From the NCBI RefSeq assembly GCF_019931575.1, contig NZ_CP082923.1:2294001-2358000 (forward strand): 64,000 nt of DNA. The letters are read 5' to 3'. Origin of the DNA: Caulobacter segnis. Lineage in GTDB: Bacteria > Pseudomonadota > Alphaproteobacteria > Caulobacterales > Caulobacteraceae. This document shows positions 2,178-12,054 of the stretch, piece by piece (the stretch's first letter is position 1; each line of letters begins with the position of its first letter). The notes beneath the pieces are model-generated. The model saw only the letters and a program-made list of their open reading frames with translations, did not search any database and had not been told where the DNA came from. Both the position numbers and the translations under genes were made by a program.

Positions 2178-2201
2178 ACGGGGGACAACGACGTTTCCCG
2201 T
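2178..2201 (+). promoter_or_regulatory. ANTAR-type RNA hairpin P1 (hexaloop AACGAC)
   Basis: A nine-base-pair stem, ACGGGGGAC against GTTTCCCGT with two G-U pairs, closes a six-base loop AACGAC at 2187-2192. A at loop position 1 and G at loop position 4 are the signature of RNA hairpins bound by ANTAR-domain antiterminators. Hairpin P2, 44 bases further on, has the same loop, giving the two-hairpin arrangement these proteins recognise. Confidence 0.75.
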
Positions 2202-2245
2202 TGGCCTGCAAGGGCCGCCGTCGGCGCCGTAGCCGTCTGGCAAGC

Positions 2246-2263
2246 TTGGACAACGACGTCCGG
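2246..2263 (+). promoter_or_regulatory. ANTAR-type RNA hairpin P2, the antiterminator (hexaloop AACGAC)
   Basis: The stem TTGGAC/GTCCGG (four Watson-Crick and two G-U pairs) closes loop AACGAC at 2252-2257, with A1 and G4 as in P1. Bases 2255-2263 are also the first nine bases of the terminator left arm, so P2 and the terminator cannot form together. Stabilisation of P2 by NasT should therefore let transcription continue into the porin and nitrate transporter genes. Confidence 0.75.
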
Positions 2264-2305
2264 AGAGACCACTGCGCGTGGTCTCGCCGGGCGTCTTTTT
2301 GTTTT
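2255..2305 (+). terminator. Intrinsic terminator in the nitrate operon leader (attenuator)
   Basis: An 18-pair stem has left arm 2255-2272, loop TGCGC at 2273-2277 and right arm 2278-2295, with one G-U pair and one A/G mismatch. It is followed by TTTTTGTTTT at 2296-2305. It lies 20 bases before the porin ATG, so it would stop transcription before the first gene. Overlap with hairpin P2 makes it a conditional terminator. Confidence 0.85.
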
Positions 2306-2324: not shown

Positions 2325-3725
2325 ATGAAATCCGTTCGACTTTTGCTGCACTGCGGTGCGGCCGCGATGGCGCTCGCCTGTAGCACGGCGGCCTGGGCCC
2401 AGGCGGCTCCCGACCCGGCGCCCAAGCCGGCCGAGGAACCGGCGGCCGAACCCGCCGCCGAGGCCGCGCCCGAGCCGGCGGCCGAACCACCGCCGCCACC
2501 CGCGCCGCCGCCGACGATCAGCGACCAGATCGGGGCCGGCAAGCTGATCCTGGAGGTCCGGGCTCGCTACGAGACCGTCGACCAGACCCGCACCGCCACC
2601 CTGCTGGACAAGGCCGACGCCTTTACCGTCCGCACCCGCCTGGGCTGGGAGACCGCCGAGTTCAAGGGCTTCAAGGGTCTCGTCGAGTTCGAGGATGTCC
2701 GCCAGATCGGCAACGAGCATTACGCCGTCAACGTGCCGGGCGCGGCGACCGCGCCGTTGAACGGCGCCGACAAGGCCCGCTATCCGATCGTCAACGATCC
2801 GGACGTCACCGAGCTGAACCGCGCCCAGCTGACCTGGACGCCCAGCGCGGTGCTGCAAGTCACCGCCGGCCGCCAGCGCATCCTGCTGGACGACCAGCGC
2901 TTCGTCGGCAATGTCGGCTGGCGCCAGGACGAACAGACCTTCGACGCCGTCCGCGCCGACGTGGCCCTGGGCCGCTTCAAGGCGACCTACGCTTATGTCA
3001 CCCACATCAACCGCATCCTGGGCGAGCTGCGTGACTGGGACAGCGACAGCCACCTGTTCAACGCCACCTGGTCGCCGGCCGAGGCGCTGAGGCTGCAAGG
3101 CTTCGTCTACGCCCTCGACTTCGGCAACTCGGCGGTCAACTCGTCGATCACCAAGGGCGTCAAGGCGTCGGGCAAGACGTGGCTGGGCCTCTACCAGCTG
3201 TCCTACAACGCCACCTTCGCTCGCCAGTCGGACTATCGCCACAACACGGCGAACTTCGACCTCGACTATTTCAGCGCCGACCTGGCCGGGACCTTCGACA
3301 TCTACACGGCCAAGATCGCCTACGAGAGCCTCGAAGGCGACGGGACACGCGGCTTCACCACGCCCCTGGCCACGGTCCACGCCTTCAACGGCTGGTCCGA
3401 CGCTTTCGTCTCGCCGGGCGGCAACAAGAGCTTCGTCGATGGGATCGAGGACCTCAACTTCGGCCTGAACATCAAGCCGCGCTTCCGGGCGACGTACTTC
3501 TTCAACACCGACATCGTGGCCCGCTACCACGACTTCGACGATCAGCGGACCGGCGCGAACCTGGGCCACGAGTGGGACCTGCAGTTCACCGCCGCCATCA
3601 CCGCCAAGCTCTCGGTCCAGCTCAAATACGCCGACTTCCAGCGCGTGAAAACCGTCCCGGTCGGCACGGCCGCGCCGCCGGCCTCGCGGACCAAGACCTG
3701 GCTCACCCTCGAATACAAGTTCTAG
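2325..3725 (+). CDS. Outer-membrane porin, first gene of the nitrate uptake operon
   Basis: A protein of 466 residues. A signal peptide (about residues 1-25, cut near AWA-Q) is followed by a Pro/Ala/Glu-rich stretch of about 36 residues. A long beta-barrel with alternating hydrophobic residues follows and ends in YKF, the C-terminal aromatic typical of outer-membrane proteins. The barrel resembles alginate-export/porin families. The ATG at 2325 is chosen because AGGGG precedes it at 8 bases; an upstream in-frame TTG at 2304 lies in the terminator T-run. The nitrate-binding protein starts 12 bases after the stop, so this is probably the outer-membrane channel for nitrate or nitrite. That substrate is inferred from position only. 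Confidence 0.75.
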   Translation: MKSVRLLLHCGAAAMALACSTAAWAQAAPDPAPKPAEEPAAEPAAEAAPEPAAEPPPPPAPPPTISDQIGAGKLILEVRARYETVDQTRTATLLDKADAFTVRTRLGWETAEFKGFKGLVEFEDVRQIGNEHYAVNVPGAATAPLNGADKARYPIVNDPDVTELNRAQLTWTPSAVLQVTAGRQRILLDDQRFVGNVGWRQDEQTFDAVRADVALGRFKATYAYVTHINRILGELRDWDSDSHLFNATWSPAEALRLQGFVYALDFGNSAVNSSITKGVKASGKTWLGLYQLSYNATFARQSDYRHNTANFDLDYFSADLAGTFDIYTAKIAYESLEGDGTRGFTTPLATVHAFNGWSDAFVSPGGNKSFVDGIEDLNFGLNIKPRFRATYFFNTDIVARYHDFDDQRTGANLGHEWDLQFTAAITAKLSVQLKYADFQRVKTVPVGTAAPPASRTKTWLTLEYKF

Positions 3726-3737
3726 CCCTCAGGAAGC

Positions 3738-5030
3738 ATGACCATGAGCAAGACCGACACCAAGACGTCCGGCCTGACGCGTCGCCACGCCCTGATGGGC
3801 GCGGCCGCCACGGTCGCCGCCGCCAAGGCCGCCTTCCCGGCGGGGGCCCACGCCGCCGGCGCCGGACCCGAGACCGCCAAGGCCCGCCTGGGCTTCATCG
3901 CCCTGACCGACAGCTCTCCGGTGATCATCGCCAAGGAGCGCGGTCTGTTCGCCAAATACGGCCTGCCCGACCTCGAGGTGGTCAAGCAGGCCTCGTGGGC
4001 CGCCACCCGCGACAACCTGGTGCTGGGCTCCGAGCGAGGCGGCATCGACGGGGCGCACATCCTGTCGCCCATGCCCTATCTGATGACGACCGGCGCCATC
4101 ACCAACGGCGTCCCGACGCCGATGTACATCCTGGCCCGCCTGAACACGAACGGGCAGGGGATCTCGGTCGGCAACGACCTGAAGAGCGTCAAGGTCGGGC
4201 TGAACAGCGCCGGCGCCAAGGCCAAGTTCCAGCAGCTCAAGGCGTCCGGAAACATCGCCAAGATCGCCATGACCTTTCGGGGCGGCACCCATGACCTGTG
4301 GGTCCGCTACTGGCTGGCGGCGGGCGGCATCAATCCGGACGTCGACGTCGCGACCATCGTGATCCCGCCGCCGCAGATGGTGGCCAACATGAAGGCCGGC
4401 ACTCAGGACGCCTTCTGCGTGGGCGAGCCGTGGAACGGTCAGTTGGTCAACCAGCATGTCGGTTATACCGCCTGCCTGACCTCCGAACTGTGGATGAACC
4501 ACCCGGAGAAGGCGCTGGGCATGCGCGCGGCCTGGGTCGACAAGTATCCCCGCGCCGCCCAGGCGATCACCGCCGCCGTGCAGGAGGCGCAGCTGTGGTG
4601 CGACAAGGCCTCGAACCTGCCGGCCATGTGCTCGATCGTCTCGGGCCGCCAGTACGTCAACGTGCCGATCGGCGACATCCTGCCCCGCCTGCAGGGCACG
4701 GTGGACTATGGCGACGGCCGGACCCTGAAGAACTCGCCGCACCGGATGAAGTTCTGGGCCGACAACGCCAGCTTCCCGTTCAAGTCCCACGACCTGTGGT
4801 TCCTGACCGAGGACATCCGCTGGGGCGTGCTGCCGCAGAAGACCAACACCAAGGCCCTGGTCGACAAGGTCAATCGCTCGGACATCTGGCGCGCGGCGGC
4901 CAAGACCATCGGCCAGGCCGGTCCGGCCGGCGACAGCCGCGGCGTCGAGCGGTTCTTCGACGGCAAGGTGTTCGACCCGGCCAATCCGGGCGCCTACCTG
5001 GCCAGCCAGCCGATCAAGAAGCTGGTCTGA
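3738..5030 (+). CDS. nrtA: Periplasmic nitrate-binding protein of an ABC transporter (NrtA/CmpA family)
   Basis: A protein of 430 residues. The N-terminus carries a twin-arginine signal (TRRHALMG followed by an Ala-rich hydrophobic segment), so it is probably exported folded by Tat. The mature part has the NrtA-like signature LGFIALTDSSPVIIAKE near residue 53 and an IPPPQMV stretch followed by CVGEPWN. It delivers nitrate, or possibly nitrite or cyanate, to the permease encoded next. Two ATGs compete (3738 and 3744); AGGAAG at 3730 is better spaced for the second. NasS, 4.4 kb downstream, is clearly homologous but has no signal peptide. Confidence 0.9.
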   Translation: MTMSKTDTKTSGLTRRHALMGAAATVAAAKAAFPAGAHAAGAGPETAKARLGFIALTDSSPVIIAKERGLFAKYGLPDLEVVKQASWAATRDNLVLGSERGGIDGAHILSPMPYLMTTGAITNGVPTPMYILARLNTNGQGISVGNDLKSVKVGLNSAGAKAKFQQLKASGNIAKIAMTFRGGTHDLWVRYWLAAGGINPDVDVATIVIPPPQMVANMKAGTQDAFCVGEPWNGQLVNQHVGYTACLTSELWMNHPEKALGMRAAWVDKYPRAAQAITAAVQEAQLWCDKASNLPAMCSIVSGRQYVNVPIGDILPRLQGTVDYGDGRTLKNSPHRMKFWADNASFPFKSHDLWFLTEDIRWGVLPQKTNTKALVDKVNRSDIWRAAAKTIGQAGPAGDSRGVERFFDGKVFDPANPGAYLASQPIKKLV

Positions 5031-5044
5031 GGAGAGGGCGCGCC

Positions 5045-5938
5045 ATGACCTATCCCAAGCCCTCGTTCACCCCCGCGGCCCCGGCGCCCGCGCCGGCGGT
5101 CGCCGTCGCGACCATCGCGCCGGCCAGGCCGTCGCCGCTGCCGGAGCTGGGCCGCCGGGCCAAGGCCGTCGCCGGCGTCGCGATCCCGCCGGTCCTGACC
5201 CTGCTGGTCGTTCTGGGTCTCTGGCAGGCGATCGTTGGCGACTCCTATGCCGGCCTGCCGTCGCCCAAGCAGGTGTGGCTGGAGTCCAAGGATCTGATCC
5301 TGCATCCGTTCTACGATAACGGCGGCGTCGACAAGGGCCTATTCTGGCACGTGTTCACCAGCCTGAAACGCGTCGGGGTGGGCTTCTCGATCTCGGCGGT
5401 CTGCGGGATCCTGCTGGGCGTCTTCGTCGGCTCCAACCGCTGGGCGCATCGGGGGCTCGACTCGATCTTCCAGGTCCTGCGCACCGTGCCGCCGCTGGCC
5501 TGGCTGCCGATCTCGCTGGCCGCCTTCCACCAGGCCCAGCCCTCGGCCCTGTTCGTGATCTTCATCACCGCGATCTGGCCGATCATCATCAACACCGCCG
5601 TCGGCGTGCGGAACATCCCCAGCGACTATGTCAACGTCGCCAAGGTGCTGCGCCTGTCGCCGGTGGAGTACTTCTTCAAGATCCTGCTGCCGGCCACCAC
5701 GCCCTACATCTTCACGGGCCTGCGGATCGGCATCGGCATGAGCTGGCTGGCCATCGTCGCCTCGGAAATGCTGCTGGGCGGCGTCGGCATCGGCTTCTTC
5801 ATCTGGGACCAGTACAACGCCTCGCGCATCGCCGACATCATCGTGGCCCTGGCCTGGGTCGGCGTGACGGGCTTCTTCCTCGACCGCCTGGTGGCCCTGG
5901 TCGGCCACTTCGTCTCGCGCGGCAGCGCCGCCAGCTAG
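5045..5938 (+). CDS. nrtB: Nitrate ABC transporter, permease subunit
   Basis: A protein of 297 residues. After a Pro/Ala-rich cytoplasmic N-terminus of about 40 residues there are about six hydrophobic segments. A BPD-type permease loop lies around residues 195-240 (KILLPATTPYIFTGLRIG), the contact site for the ATPase. ATG 5045 is preceded by GGAGAGG. An in-frame upstream extension overlaps nrtA and is rejected. It lies 14 bases after nrtA and 6 bases before the ATPase gene, so the three form one importer. Confidence 0.92.
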   Translation: MTYPKPSFTPAAPAPAPAVAVATIAPARPSPLPELGRRAKAVAGVAIPPVLTLLVVLGLWQAIVGDSYAGLPSPKQVWLESKDLILHPFYDNGGVDKGLFWHVFTSLKRVGVGFSISAVCGILLGVFVGSNRWAHRGLDSIFQVLRTVPPLAWLPISLAAFHQAQPSALFVIFITAIWPIIINTAVGVRNIPSDYVNVAKVLRLSPVEYFFKILLPATTPYIFTGLRIGIGMSWLAIVASEMLLGGVGIGFFIWDQYNASRIADIIVALAWVGVTGFFLDRLVALVGHFVSRGSAAS

Positions 5939-5944
5939 GGAGCC

Positions 5945-6736
5945 ATGCACATGGCCAAGGCCTATCTTTCCATCGAGAACGTCGGCGTCACCTTCACCAA
6001 GGGCGCGGCTCGCACCGAGGTGCTCACGGGCGTCGACCTGAAGGTCGAGAAGGGCGAGTTCGTCTCGATCATCGGCCACTCCGGCTGCGGCAAGTCCACC
6101 CTGCTGAACGTGGTGGCGGGTCTCACCCCGGTCACGACCGGGGCGGTGATCCTGGATCGGCAGGAGGTCAACGCGCCCGGTCCCGACCGCGCCGTGGTCT
6201 TCCAGAACCACTCGCTGCTGCCGTGGCTGTCGGTGCGCGAGAACGTCTCGCTGGCGGTCGACAAGGTGTTCGGCGGAGCCAAGTCCGCCGCCGAGCGCCG
6301 CGACTGGACGCTGCACAATCTGGAGCTGGTCAAGATGACCCACGCCCTGGACAAGCGTCCGTCCGAGATCTCCGGCGGCATGAAGCAGCGGGTCGGCATC
6401 GCCCGAGCCCTGTCCATGGAGCCCAAGGTGCTGCTACTGGACGAGCCGTTCGGGGCCCTGGACGCCCTGACCCGCGCCCACCTGCAGGACAGCGTCATGG
6501 AGATCCACGCGGCGCTGAACAACACGGTGCTGATGATCACCCACGACGTGGACGAGGCGACCCTGCTGTCGGACCGCATCGTGATGATGACCAACGGCCC
6601 GCGCGCCTGCGTCGGCCAGGTGCTGGACGTTGACCTGCCGCGCCCGCGCGATCGCTTGGCCGTGGCCGAGCATCCGACCTATGTCCACGCGCGGGCGGCG
6701 GTGATCGAGTTCCTTTACGCCCGCAGAGCCGCCTAG
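5945..6736 (+). CDS. nrtC: Nitrate ABC transporter, ATPase subunit
   Basis: A protein of 263 residues, the short NrtD/SsuB-like form without the extra C-terminal binding-protein domain seen in cyanobacterial NrtC. Walker A is GHSGCGKST (about residues 44-52), the Q-loop is in VFQNHSLLPW, the signature is SGGMKQR and Walker B is VLLLDEPFGALD, followed by the switch His in THDVDEA. ATG 5945 sits only two bases from GGGAG, so ATG 5951 (MAKAYL) may be the true start. It ends the operon; its stop overlaps the convergent oxidoreductase stop by four bases. Confidence 0.92.
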   Translation: MHMAKAYLSIENVGVTFTKGAARTEVLTGVDLKVEKGEFVSIIGHSGCGKSTLLNVVAGLTPVTTGAVILDRQEVNAPGPDRAVVFQNHSLLPWLSVRENVSLAVDKVFGGAKSAAERRDWTLHNLELVKMTHALDKRPSEISGGMKQRVGIARALSMEPKVLLLDEPFGALDALTRAHLQDSVMEIHAALNNTVLMITHDVDEATLLSDRIVMMTNGPRACVGQVLDVDLPRPRDRLAVAEHPTYVHARAAVIEFLYARRAA

Positions 6737-8576: not shown

Positions 8577-8883
8577 CGAGAAGGCTCCGCTCAAGCTTAT
8601 GTCGCCGGATCTGGCGCCGTCGCAGGGGACAACGCAAGGTGGATTTGGGGTCTTGTACGTTTTGGTTGCACCGGGAACGCGACAACGCAACGGGCGGCAA
8701 GGCCTTGCGGGTCCGGACGCTGTCACGGCACGGGCGCGCGGCGCAAGGCGCTGGACCGGCACGGCTTGCCGATTTGCTCAAGGAGAAGTCTTCGGCGCCT
8801 GCATTTCGTGCAATCCTCTGCGTGGACGCCCCCAGTGGGGGAAAGTTCCCCCGCGCGGCGCGGCGCCGCTTAGGACGGAGCCG
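8577..8883 (+). promoter_or_regulatory. Divergent spacer before nasT, with two alternative hairpins
   Basis: A 307-base spacer between the DUF4126 gene and nasT, without a believable gene. Close to nasT, CCCCC-AGT-GGGGG (8829-8841) and GGGGGAA-AG-TTCCCCC (8837-8852) share the same G-run and cannot both form. Neither loop has the ANTAR A1/G4 pattern. Promoters for both directions must lie here, but I could not identify them with confidence. Confidence 0.4.
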
Positions 8884-9456
8884 ATGCGGGTGCTCGTCAT
8901 TGATCCAGATACCGCGCGCGCCGCGCTCGTGGCCCAGGGGCTGGAGGGCGTGCAGCCGCTCGAGGTGCGCCGTTCGGCCGTCTATGACGAGGCCGAGGTT
9001 CTGGCCTTCGCGCCGGACGTGGTGGTCATCGCCGCCGAAAGCCCCGACCGCGACACCCTCGATAGTCTCAAGGAGTCCAGCGCCGGGCACGCGGTCGTGA
9101 TGTTCGTCGATCGCTCCGAGCCCGGTCTGGCCGAGCAGGCCGTGCGCGCCGGCGTGGCGGCCTATGTCGTCGATGGCCTGGCTCCCAACCGGGTGCGCTC
9201 GATCCTCGATGTCGCCATGAGCCGCTTCGCCCTGACGCAGCAACTGCGCGGCGACCTGGCCAAGGCCAAGGCCGATCTGGAATCGCGCAAGACCGTCGAG
9301 CGGGCCAAGGGCCTGCTGATGAAGGAGCGCGGCCTGGACGAGGACGGCGCCTATCGCCTGCTGCGCAAGCTGGCCATGGACCGGGGAAAACCGATCGGCG
9401 CGGTCGCCGCCGACCTGCTGGCCTTCGCCGGAGTGCTGAAGGGAGACGGTCAATGA
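8884..9456 (+). CDS. nasT: ANTAR-domain response regulator and transcription antiterminator NasT
   Basis: A protein of 190 residues. Residues 1-120 form a receiver-like domain (MRVLVIDPD start, VVVIAAESPD, VVMFVDRSE), with the phospho-acceptor region degenerate as in NasT. A coiled-coil helix follows (QLRGDLAKAKADLESRK). The ANTAR domain is last (ERAKGLLMKERGLDEDGAYRLLRKLAM). ANTAR proteins bind paired hexaloop hairpins in leader RNA and prevent termination. ATG 8884 has GGAG at proper spacing; the frame extends upstream without support. The last four bases overlap nasS (ATGA), so the two are translationally coupled. The likely target is the leader at 2178-2305. Confidence 0.92.
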   Translation: MRVLVIDPDTARAALVAQGLEGVQPLEVRRSAVYDEAEVLAFAPDVVVIAAESPDRDTLDSLKESSAGHAVVMFVDRSEPGLAEQAVRAGVAAYVVDGLAPNRVRSILDVAMSRFALTQQLRGDLAKAKADLESRKTVERAKGLLMKERGLDEDGAYRLLRKLAMDRGKPIGAVAADLLAFAGVLKGDGQ

Positions 9457-10598
9457 GCGGCCTCTCGGACCTGCGCCTGGGATTCATCCCGCTGACCGAT
9501 TGCGCGCCGCTGGCCGTGGCGCAGGCCCTGGGCTTCTTCGAGGAGGAAGGGCTGAGCGTCACCCTGGAGCGTGAGGCCTCGTGGGCCACCATCCGCGACA
9601 AGGTCGCCGTCGGCGCGCTGGACGGCGCCCACATGCTGGCGCCGATGGCCCTGGCCGCGACGGCCGGCGGCGAGGGCGAGATCCTGGCCCCGTTGGCCCT
9701 GAACCAGAACGGCAGCGCCGTCACCGTCTCGATCGCCCTGGCCGAGGAGATCGGCGCGATCGCCCTGAAGGACTTTTCCGGACCGCCCGTCACCGCCGCG
9801 GCCCTCGCCAAGGTGGTCGCCGCGCGCCGCGCGCGCGGGGAGGGCCCGCTGACCTTCGCCGTGGTCTTCCCCTACTCGATGCACAACTACCTGCTGCGCT
9901 ACTGGCTGGCCCAGGGCGGCGTCGATCCCGACCGCGACGTGCGGATCGTGGTCATTCCGCCGCCGCGCATGGTCGAGCGGATGCGGGCGGGCGAGGTCGA
10001 CGGCTTCTGTGTCGGCGCGCCGTGGAACGCGGTGGCCGACGCCGAAGGCGTGGGCCGGATCCTGGTCGCCGCCTCGCAGTTCTGGCCCGGCGGTCCCGAC
10101 AAGGTGCTCGGCGTGCCCGCCGCCCTGGCCAGGCAGCGACCAGACGAGCTGCGCGCCTGCCTCCGCGCGGTGATGCGCGGCGCGGCTTGGGCCGACGCGC
10201 CGGAGAACCGCGAGGCGCTGGTCGAGCTCCTGGCGCGCCCCGACCGCGTGGGCGCGCCCCCCGCCGCCATCGTCCGCGCCCTGGGCGGCGAGATCGTCTT
10301 CCATCGCGACGCCGCCGGCCTGCCGCGCCGCGAGCACGGCCTTTGGTTCCTGTCGCAGATGACCCGCTGGGGCCAGATCGGCGCCGAGCACGACCTGCAG
10401 GCTCTGGTCGATCGGGTCTATCGGCCCGACCTCTATCGCGACGCGGCCCTGTCGCTGGGGCCGATTCTGGAGCCGGCCCTGGCCTTCGCCGACGCCGCCG
10501 GTCCCGTGGAGGCGCGGCTGTTCGACGGCCGGGCGTTCGATCCCAAGGCCGTGCGCGACTACGCCGCCGGCTTCGCCATCGGCCGGATGCTGGCCTGA
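9453..10598 (+). CDS. nasS: Cytoplasmic nitrate/nitrite sensor NasS
   Basis: A protein of 381 residues, homologous to the NrtA binding protein (LGFIPLTDCAPLAVAQ at the start, REASWATIRDK, the VVIPPPRMV stretch, CVGAPWN). It has no signal peptide, so it acts in the cytoplasm. In known NasS-NasT pairs, NasS without nitrate sequesters NasT, and nitrate binding releases it to antiterminate the nitrate genes. Overlap of its ATG with the nasT stop matches the need for balanced amounts. It ends 235 bases before the MFS transporter. Confidence 0.9.
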   Translation: MSGLSDLRLGFIPLTDCAPLAVAQALGFFEEEGLSVTLEREASWATIRDKVAVGALDGAHMLAPMALAATAGGEGEILAPLALNQNGSAVTVSIALAEEIGAIALKDFSGPPVTAAALAKVVAARRARGEGPLTFAVVFPYSMHNYLLRYWLAQGGVDPDRDVRIVVIPPPRMVERMRAGEVDGFCVGAPWNAVADAEGVGRILVAASQFWPGGPDKVLGVPAALARQRPDELRACLRAVMRGAAWADAPENREALVELLARPDRVGAPPAAIVRALGGEIVFHRDAAGLPRREHGLWFLSQMTRWGQIGAEHDLQALVDRVYRPDLYRDAALSLGPILEPALAFADAAGPVEARLFDGRAFDPKAVRDYAAGFAIGRMLA

Positions 10599-10833
10599 TC
10601 TGCCTGCTTCGTGGGCGCCGCTCGTGCATAAATGCTGAGCAATCGTGCGCCGCAAACCGCGTTGGCGCCGCAGCGCGGTATGGCGGTGACATGAAGCCCG
10701 TCACCCGTCTTCTATAGCCTCAAGGCCAACGAACAACGGCGTTCGCGGCTGCCAGAGGACCGCTCGGATGCGGTCAGCCACCCGGGGCGACGACGCCCCG
10801 CTCTCGCAGACACGCAATCCGTCGAGGCCGACA
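10599..10833 (+). promoter_or_regulatory. Leader of the nitrate/nitrite reductase operon
   Basis: A 235-base spacer before the MFS transporter. It holds a hairpin GGTGAC/GTCACC with a nine-base loop (10685-10705) and then a hexaloop hairpin of ANTAR type at 10725-10749. Further on are GACCGC/GCGGTC (about 10759-10776) and a GGGGC/GCCCC hairpin (about 10783-10799). There is no U-tract, so an intrinsic terminator is not apparent. The layout hints at, but does not prove, NasT control. Confidence 0.45.
10725..10749 (+). promoter_or_regulatory. Candidate ANTAR hairpin (hexaloop AACGGC) before the nitrate reductase operon
   Basis: The stem CGAAC/GTTCG (10730-10734 with 10741-10745) closes loop AACGGC at 10735-10740, with A1 and G4. 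Outer pairs GCC/GGC add three more after a small internal loop. A matching upstream hexaloop hairpin is not clear, so this is a weaker case than 2178-2305. Confidence 0.45.
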
Positions 10834-12054
10834 ATGATCTCCCGCGATTTCCTGAAGGCCGGCCATGCGCCGACCCTGTTCGCCGCCTTCCTGTATTTCG
10901 ATCTCAGCTTCATGGTCTGGGTGATCCTGGGTCCGCTGGGCGTCGCCATCGCCAAGGACTTCCACCTCGATCCCGCCCAGAAGGGCCTGATGGTCGCCAT
11001 CCCCGTGCTGGCCGGCGCCGTGTTGCGCCTGGTCAACGGCGTGCTGGTCGACCGGATCGGGCCGAAGAAGACCGGCATGATCGGTCAGCTGATCGTGCTG
11101 GCCGGTCTGGTCCTGGCCTGGCTGGTCGGCATCCACAACTACCAGCAGGTGCTGGCCCTGGGCGTCATCCTGGGCGTGGCCGGCGCCTCGTTCGCCGTCG
11201 CCCTGCCGCTGGCCTCGCGCTGGTATCCGCAGGAGCATCAGGGCCTGGCCCTGGGCATCGCCGGCGCCGGCAACTCGGGCACGGCCCTGGCGGCTCTGTT
11301 CGCGCCGGCCCTGGCCAAGATGTTCGGCTGGCAGACCGTGATCGGCCTGGCCGCCATCCCGCTGGCCGTCGCCTTCGTCGTCTACATGCTGCTGGCCAAG
11401 GACGCGCCCGAGCAGCCGGCGCCCAAGAAGCTGGCCGAGTACATGGACGTCCTGAAGGTCCCTGACGCCTGGTGGCTGATGCTGCTGTACGGCGTGACCT
11501 TCGGCGGCTTCGTCGGCCTGGCCTCGTCGCTGACCATGTACTTCAACTCGGAGTACGGCCTGGATCCGGTCATCGCCGGCTTCTTCACCGCCGCCTGCGT
11601 CTTCGCCGGTTCGTTCATCCGTCCGGTCGGCGGGGCCCTGGCCGACAAGTTCGGCGGCGTGCGCACCCTGAGCTTCGTCTACATCCTGGCCGCCCTGGGC
11701 CTGGCCGTCGCCAGCTTCCAGCTGCCGTCGCCCTTCATCGCCCTGGCCGTGCTGCTGTTCTCGATGATGGTCCTGGGCGCGGGCAACGGCGCGGTGTTCC
11801 AGTTGGCCCCGCAGCGCTTCCGCAAGGAGATCGGCGTCATGACCGGCCTGATCGGCATGACGGGCGGCATCGGCGGCTTCTACCTGGCCTCGACCCTGGG
11901 CATGGCCAAGAAGATGAGCGGCTCCTACCAGCCGGGTTTCATCGGCTTCGCCCTGCTGGCGCTGTTCGCCTTCTTCGCCCTCCACGGCCTCAAGGCCCGC
12001 TGGCGCGCCGTGTGGCCGACCCTGCACGGCGACGCCGCCGCGGTCCGCGTCTGA
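10834..12054 (+). CDS. narK: MFS nitrate/nitrite transporter (NarK/NasA family)
   Basis: A protein of 406 residues with about twelve hydrophobic segments. The NNP family signatures are visible: an early FMVWVILGPL helix, RLVNGVLVDRIGPKK in the loop after helix 2, and glycine-rich GAGNSGTALAALFAP and GAGNGAVFQLAPQRF nitrate-signature segments. ATG 10834 (MISRDFLK) has GAGG seven bases upstream and matches the usual family N-terminus; the longer upstream frame runs through leader hairpins. It is the first gene of the nir/nas operon and gives the cell a second nitrate route beside the ABC importer. Confidence 0.9.
   Translation: MISRDFLKAGHAPTLFAAFLYFDLSFMVWVILGPLGVAIAKDFHLDPAQKGLMVAIPVLAGAVLRLVNGVLVDRIGPKKTGMIGQLIVLAGLVLAWLVGIHNYQQVLALGVILGVAGASFAVALPLASRWYPQEHQGLALGIAGAGNSGTALAALFAPALAKMFGWQTVIGLAAIPLAVAFVVYMLLAKDAPEQPAPKKLAEYMDVLKVPDAWWLMLLYGVTFGGFVGLASSLTMYFNSEYGLDPVIAGFFTAACVFAGSFIRPVGGALADKFGGVRTLSFVYILAALGLAVASFQLPSPFIALAVLLFSMMVLGAGNGAVFQLAPQRFRKEIGVMTGLIGMTGGIGGFYLASTLGMAKKMSGSYQPGFIGFALLALFAFFALHGLKARWRAVWPTLHGDAAAVRV

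Follow-up and report, generated by a model that had tools for sequence, protein, structure and literature searches.

Positions 2178-2305 of the window (by which we mean the whole 64,000-nucleotide stretch of DNA analysed here) hold a conserved chain of hairpins that ends in a terminator. Judging from the sequence and its relatives, NasT freed by nitrate very likely binds the hexaloop hairpins P1 and P2 in this chain, blocks the terminator and opens the porin-nitrate ABC operon that follows; NasT binding, nitrate control and readthrough are here carried over by analogy from other species. The system is of a known kind; what is new is its long structured linker with a middle loop of the class R1/G4 (A or G at position 1, G at position 4). 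The sequence and the computed fold give the following order along the leader:

2178-2201, + strand: P1, the far ANTAR hexaloop hairpin (2178-2186 with 2193-2201, 9 pairs; loop AACGAC at 2187-2192)
2203-2216, + strand: Ha, the first linker hairpin, with a GCAA tetraloop, from the fold
2217-2241, + strand: Hb, the middle linker hairpin (hexaloop GCCGUA at 2226-2231, G at positions 1 and 4)
2246-2263, + strand: P2, the antiterminator hexaloop hairpin (2246-2251 with 2258-2263, 6 pairs; loop AACGAC at 2252-2257)
2255-2295, + strand: intrinsic terminator hairpin (2255-2263 with 2287-2295, plus 2265-2272 with 2278-2285)
2296-2305, + strand: U-run of the terminator, TTTTTGTTTT, from the sequence

The first-pass annotation had described two hairpins here that share one loop, the second of them overlapping the left arm of a terminator. 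Coordinates, stems and loops were all as it gave them: AACGAC is identical in P1 and P2, and the stretch 2255-2263 is common to P2 and the terminator. Since the loop end and 3' arm of P2 are the 5' arm of the terminator, only one of the two structures can form. The terminator and its T-run are likewise real, but of the 18 pairs given for the hairpin 17 are standard and one is an A-G mismatch, and the leader is not a plain two-hairpin one, as a 44-nt linker with Ha and Hb lies between P1 and P2. For the whole leader the computed folding energy is -71.7 kcal/mol (z -4.83; none of 200 shuffles was equally stable). Taken alone, P2 (whose outer two pairs are U-G) has a computed energy of -5.9 kcal/mol and the terminator one of -32.5 kcal/mol. 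When the transcript was folded as it grew, P2 was present up to 2283, partial or eroded at 2288, and replaced by the terminator from 2292. The U-run ends 20 bases before the porin-like ATG at 2325.

The genes that would be controlled, and the nasT-nasS pair, are as follows:

2325-3725, + strand: porin-like outer-membrane gene (Pfam Alginate_exp PF13372, E 1e-11)
3738-5030, + strand: NrtA-like substrate-binding protein (NMT1_2 PF13379)
5030-5938, + strand: nitrate ABC transporter permease (NCBIfam ntrB TIGR01183, over cut-off)
5945-6736, + strand: nitrate ABC transporter ATPase (NCBIfam ntrCD TIGR01184, over cut-off)
8884-9456, + strand: nasT, ANTAR protein, the sole ANTAR match in the genome
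9453-10598, + strand: nasS, NMT1_2-family sensor, named by position and resemblance

Two further claims, that nasT-nasS lie in the same locus (8884-10598) and that the first gene is an outer-membrane porin, were borne out, the latter by the Alginate_exp match; an NCBIfam search of the porin-like gene gave no match. The genome is one 5.17-Mb contig, in which nasT is the single ANTAR match. The closest named porin loci are from Caulobacter, and the search tool assigns such genomes to the same genus. In several of these (G056, G064, G071, G086, G142, G146) a second porin copy, with 59-61% identity to the window's, adjoins the first. Separately, a hairpin with an A1/G4 loop, gtgggggAAAGTTcccccgc, lies just before nasT (8835-8854); we dropped it as a nasT autoregulatory site, the same stem rule having found a related, shorter form in a single locus (L006) among the nasT loci.

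Two hairpins with A1/G4 hexaloops, of which the second overlaps and excludes an intrinsic terminator, in a genome that encodes an ANTAR protein (here nasT), are what characterises an ANTAR dual-hexaloop leader, and all of these are present here. The stems are joined by a variable linker, as in the search definition of Ramesh 2012 (PMC3369931), which in its available text states no length limit. At 44 nt by sequence, this linker lies outside the 2-25 nt kept in the curation of an actinobacterial survey (PMC8164766, as far as its available text goes) and outside the 5-12 nt of the eut leaders. We treat such limits as rules of particular sets, not as defining, and file the leader as a variant of the ANTAR dual-hexaloop kind. 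An Rfam search of the window gave no family at gathering score, and one of 1900-2500 gave two weak, unrelated matches with E above 1.

According to the available parts of the published accounts, the same elements recur in several well-studied systems. The EutV-controlled eutP leader of Enterococcus faecalis has two A1/G4 hexaloop hairpins, the second overlapping a terminator (PMC3369931, PMC8934654); unlike that leader with its 5-12 nt linker, the one in the window has a linker of 44 nt that contains two hairpins and places a G1/G4 loop at -26. In Paracoccus, NasT is reported to bind the nasA leader RNA, nitrate to split NasS-NasT, and free NasT to be an oligomer of ~130 kDa (PMC3795266). The Paracoccus denitrificans nasA leader shares the NasS-NasT pair and has hairpins HI and HII 46 bp apart before its operon (PMC3795266, PMC5424462), but it controls nasABGHC, whereas the window leader precedes a porin-ABC operon. 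In a P. versutus relative, inspection by eye showed two A1/G4 loops with a spacing of ~25 nt, and the stretch as printed has no U-run. NasT is also described as an antiterminator acting on a terminator in the nosR leader of Bradyrhizobium diazoefficiens (PMC6759348), where the target is denitrification. The nasF leader of Klebsiella oxytoca likewise pairs a nitrate-triggered ANTAR protein with a two-hairpin leader (PMC7496416), but its NasR, unlike the NasT of the window, is described there as a one-component NIT-ANTAR sensor. By analogy, nitrate would release NasT from NasS, the free NasT would bind P1 and P2, P2 held in this way would keep the terminator from forming, and RNA polymerase would read on into the porin and nitrate ABC genes.

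To see how far the leader is conserved, 79 porin loci and the window were collected, from which 54 leaders (the window and 53 of the 79) satisfied our P1-P2 rule. The other 26 loci are L037, L047-L050, L055, L059-L061, L063 and L065-L080; by another rule a leader was found somewhere in the locus, not always before the porin, in L037, L048-L050, L055, L059, L070, L071, L073, L075 and L077-L080. G4 was present in all 54 leaders in both loops, and A1 in 52 (P1) and 53 (P2), the remainder having G1; the rule for P1 used the loop class, so that conservation of its loop is partly by construction, and the rule for P2 did not. The annotation had named loss of A1 and G4 in relatives as the result that would speak against it, and the loops came through this comparison. 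Forty leaders (39 distinct) were then aligned with plain MAFFT. Of the alignment cells, 83.9% were paired in the antiterminator conformation, against 78.9 in shuffles and no more than 49.1 in slid versions; for the terminator conformation the figures were 86.0%, 78.4 and, again, no more than 49.1. None of 500 shuffles reached the paired percentage or the covariation score of either conformation. P1 had 92.2% of cells paired and 8 of its 9 pairs changed on both sides in a 62-row model alignment (the plain MAFFT one showed this for 3 of them), the inner four pairs of P2 were invariant in the 39 distinct rows, and the terminator had 94.3% of cells paired, with both-side changes in 8 of 14 counted pairs.

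A covariance model, R1, built from the plain MAFFT alignment gave 62 matches in 58 of the 79 sources searched, L066 and L059 from outside the set of 54 among them. Its alignment has both-side changes in 22 of 27 pairs, a figure that leans towards the model. On the window's own genome the model found one strong site (E 7e-36; next E 0.04), and second-best matches had E 0.04-6.7. Among 149 genomes of the family, 32 had an R1 match, 53 an ANTAR gene and 28 both; an ANTAR gene was thus found in 28 of 32 genomes with the leader versus 25 of 117 without it. Where the porin locus shows no nasT (22 genomes), 21 have exactly one ANTAR gene elsewhere, and the genome of L041 has none.

We also scanned 200 loci (3.32 Mb), picked for holding a porin or nasT, for an A1/G4 hexaloop hairpin that overlaps a terminator with a T-run and has another A1/G4 hexaloop hairpin upstream. 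This rule gave 94 hits from 124 candidates and 0 or 1 in each of eight first-order Markov resamplings, while 15 other loop classes under the same rule gave 0 to 3 hits. These numbers bear on whether the leader might be an attenuator answering to some other signal or protein than NasT. Such a reading could appeal to NasT binding itself being drawn from analogy and to the four of 32 leader genomes in which an ANTAR gene was not found, two with weak model matches (G013, G087) and two with strong ones (G018, 99% complete; G053, 80%). Against it stand the specificity of the A1/G4 class over the 15 others, the single ANTAR gene per genome wherever one was found, and the presence of nas-type genes no further than 4 kb from the porin in 69 of the 79 loci, and we consider it very improbable. 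Antitermination by NasT ahead of the porin-nitrate ABC operon, as annotated, is the best reading of this nas-type context and single ANTAR gene, together with the conserved loops and the covarying P1 and terminator, as far as comparison of sequences can tell.

We next consider the linker (2202-2245), which Ha and Hb fill, leaving five unpaired bases (U2202 and 2242-2245) if folded. In the plain alignment Ha had 80.9% of cells paired and 4 of 5 pairs changed on both sides. For the Ha and Hb pairs alone, 75.6% of cells were paired versus 67.9 in shuffles, and 34 cells were changed on both sides versus 12.5; none of 500 shuffles reached these values or the covariation score. In 48 of 500 shuffles at least as many pairs had a both-side change. 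Because the pair counts beat the shuffles and the 54 linkers have a mean fold z of -2.99, both linker hairpins are, from these comparisons, selected; the window's own linker, taken by itself, would make a weak case (z -1.17, with 23 of 200 shuffles as stable).

What the linker hairpins do can be approached through spacing. In the available text of the EutV work, eut linkers span 5-12 nt, a linker of 14 nt drastically lowers EutV induction in vivo, and 20 added nt abolish antitermination in vitro (PMC3369931, PMC8934654). By this rule a 44-nt linker is too long, and its predicted hairpins set a G1/G4 loop where ordinary leaders have their first loop, the Hb loop sitting 26 nt before the P2 loop. 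We prefer a reading in which P1 would be the landing site for NasT and Hb the bridge to P2, the Hb of Caulobacter probably still making a weak third contact through its residual G1/G4. In the structure of EutV with RNA, the protein makes base-specific contact with G4 alone, as described in the available part of that report (PMC8934654). A version of the same explanation that dispenses with the third contact is nearly as likely, and we would give it a little under an even chance: NasT would touch P1 and P2 alone, and Ha and Hb, themselves untouched, would fold up the linker and thereby keep the other two hairpins near enough to be reached. Covariation in both linker hairpins suits this pure spacer, as does a Phenylobacterium MAG (L037) in which Ha and Hb are absent and P1 stands 26 nt before P2, a single MAG that could be an assembly matter.

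A survey of the middle position speaks on both sides. Stretches around nasT from 120 genome places were scanned together with the porin loci, and middle loops were classed in the folded linkers. This yielded 105 leaders with P1 and P2, the loop-to-loop spacing being 18-31 nt in 23 and more than 38 nt in 82; the long-linker leaders are related to each other, so that counts among them are not independent events. The hairpin closest to P2 carries a loop of six bases in 40 of the 82, and 37 of these loops are R1/G4 (24 G1/G4, 13 A1/G4), lying 18-32 nt before the P2 loop. One hundred dinucleotide shuffles of the same linkers gave 2.3 such loops on average and never more than 5, and 22 of 58 linkers retained one after similar linkers were collapsed. 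The other 42 of the 82, many of them from Phenylobacterium, have no hexaloop at this position (19 four-base, 10 five-base, 5 three-base and 5 longer loops, and 3 without a hairpin), as a pure spacer would allow. The excess of R1/G4 loops over shuffles argues against a pure spacer, and so do the Caulobacter middle loops (GAUGUA, GCUGUA, GCCGUA, GAUGCA, GAUGAA, GACGCA, GACGUA and GACGGG), where G is fixed at positions 1 and 4 while 2, 3, 5 and 6 vary; a spacer would need none of this.

With their spacing of 26 nt, Hb and P2 would fit among the 23 short-spaced pairs (18-31 nt), and one could suppose that these two are the working pair, with P1 an accessory that only raises the local NasT concentration. 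We regard this as unlikely: it is P1 that has the longest covarying stem and a near-invariant A1/G4, the Hb loop no longer has A1 in Caulobacter, and elsewhere it is often not a hexaloop at all, and in Paracoccus it was mutation of the first hairpin that hurt expression most, according to the part of that study available (PMC5424462).

A1/G4 loops at the middle position occur in Asticcacaulis (e.g. L049, L053, L054, L057), in one Caulobacteraceae MAG (L022) and, outside the class, in a few genomes (L275, L285, L293). In Alcanivorax, where the leaders precede nrtA and not a porin, 4 of 7 (L070, L073, L075, L077) have three A1/G4 loops spaced by 26 and 23 nt, and the remaining 3 have two. We tentatively suggest, rating it slightly below an even prospect, that ANTAR leaders with three loops form a second architecture that is widespread. 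In it NasT would land on a far hexaloop ~60 nt upstream, pass to a middle R1/G4 loop at the canonical ~26 nt and from there to the terminator-overlapping loop, and an oligomeric NasT may hold all three; the Caulobacter porin leader would belong here, its middle loop having changed from A1 to G1 by drift. In the open literature, which is what our search covered (subscription papers lay outside its scope), we found no description of three-loop ANTAR leaders or of a structured linker.

The surroundings of the leader were inspected as well. On its downstream side, a small hairpin at 2307-2324, GCCUU-AGGGGAUG-AAGGC, has the Shine-Dalgarno sequence in its loop, and control might be imagined to act on translation there. 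It has a computed energy of -4.7 kcal/mol and 75.3% of cells paired; shuffles scored as high in 73 of 500 cases for the percentage paired and 138 of 500 for covariation, and a strong terminator lies upstream, which together make this extremely improbable. The hairpin looks conserved by eye, failed these pair-count controls, and is not claimed.

Upstream, within 2110-2177, a TTGC ~50 nt before the P1 loop and a CGACA just before P1 are conserved in many relatives. A reading of the TTGC as a sigma-54 promoter was dropped, as it was made by eye only and Caulobacter NtrC is described, in the available text of PMC10274813, as having no GAFTGA loop. Further upstream lies one more feature:

2080-2094, - strand: NtrC-like motif TTTTGCACAGCAGCA (name inferred), best motif match

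Lying 105-109 nt upstream of the P1 loop, this minus-strand motif matches at no fewer than 11 of 14 positions in 25 of the 54 leaders, a count without chance control. In Caulobacter, NtrC ChIP peaks are reported at nasT and narK, the porin being unmentioned in the available part of that paper (PMC10274813). The motif also occurs in the other orientation ~180 nt before narK in several relatives.

The window contains a candidate second site, before narK:

10730-10745, + strand: narK leader hairpin 1, hexaloop AACGGC (A1, G4)
10758-10775, + strand: narK leader hairpin 2, hexaloop UCGGAU (G4, not A1), 29 nt after hairpin 1
10834-12054, + strand: narK-type nitrate/nitrite transporter, closest to NCBIfam TIGR00886 (302.9 bits, just under the cut-off of 311.7)

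Under a rule asking for a spacing of at least 16 and less than 45, such a hairpin pair was found in 17 of 33 loci with narK, at observed spacings of 21-31. The narK leader of the window has no U-run, and TTTT is absent from the last 100 nt in 14 of the 17 loci with the pair. From its sequence, narK is a second nitrate transporter gene with its own candidate NasT leader, and control there may differ. One MAG (L062) has full leaders of the R1 model type at both the porin and narK (9775-9910 and 11278-11409).

The published ANTAR rule asks for two hexaloops close together. At the level of sequence this family of leaders departs from it, yet seems to comply either through its folded structure or by means of a third loop; leaders of this kind would be lost from a survey restricted, as one was, to linkers of 2-25 nt. 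For the organism, a porin-like outer-membrane gene is placed first in the predicted NasT-controlled operon. The natural variants, with no insert, an inert insert, a G1/G4 insert or an A1/G4 insert, make the movement of an ANTAR dimer or oligomer from P1 to the terminator-overlapping hairpin directly testable, and the unusually long spacer with its two extra hairpins, one of them a likely third docking loop, offers a way to test how such switches measure distance.
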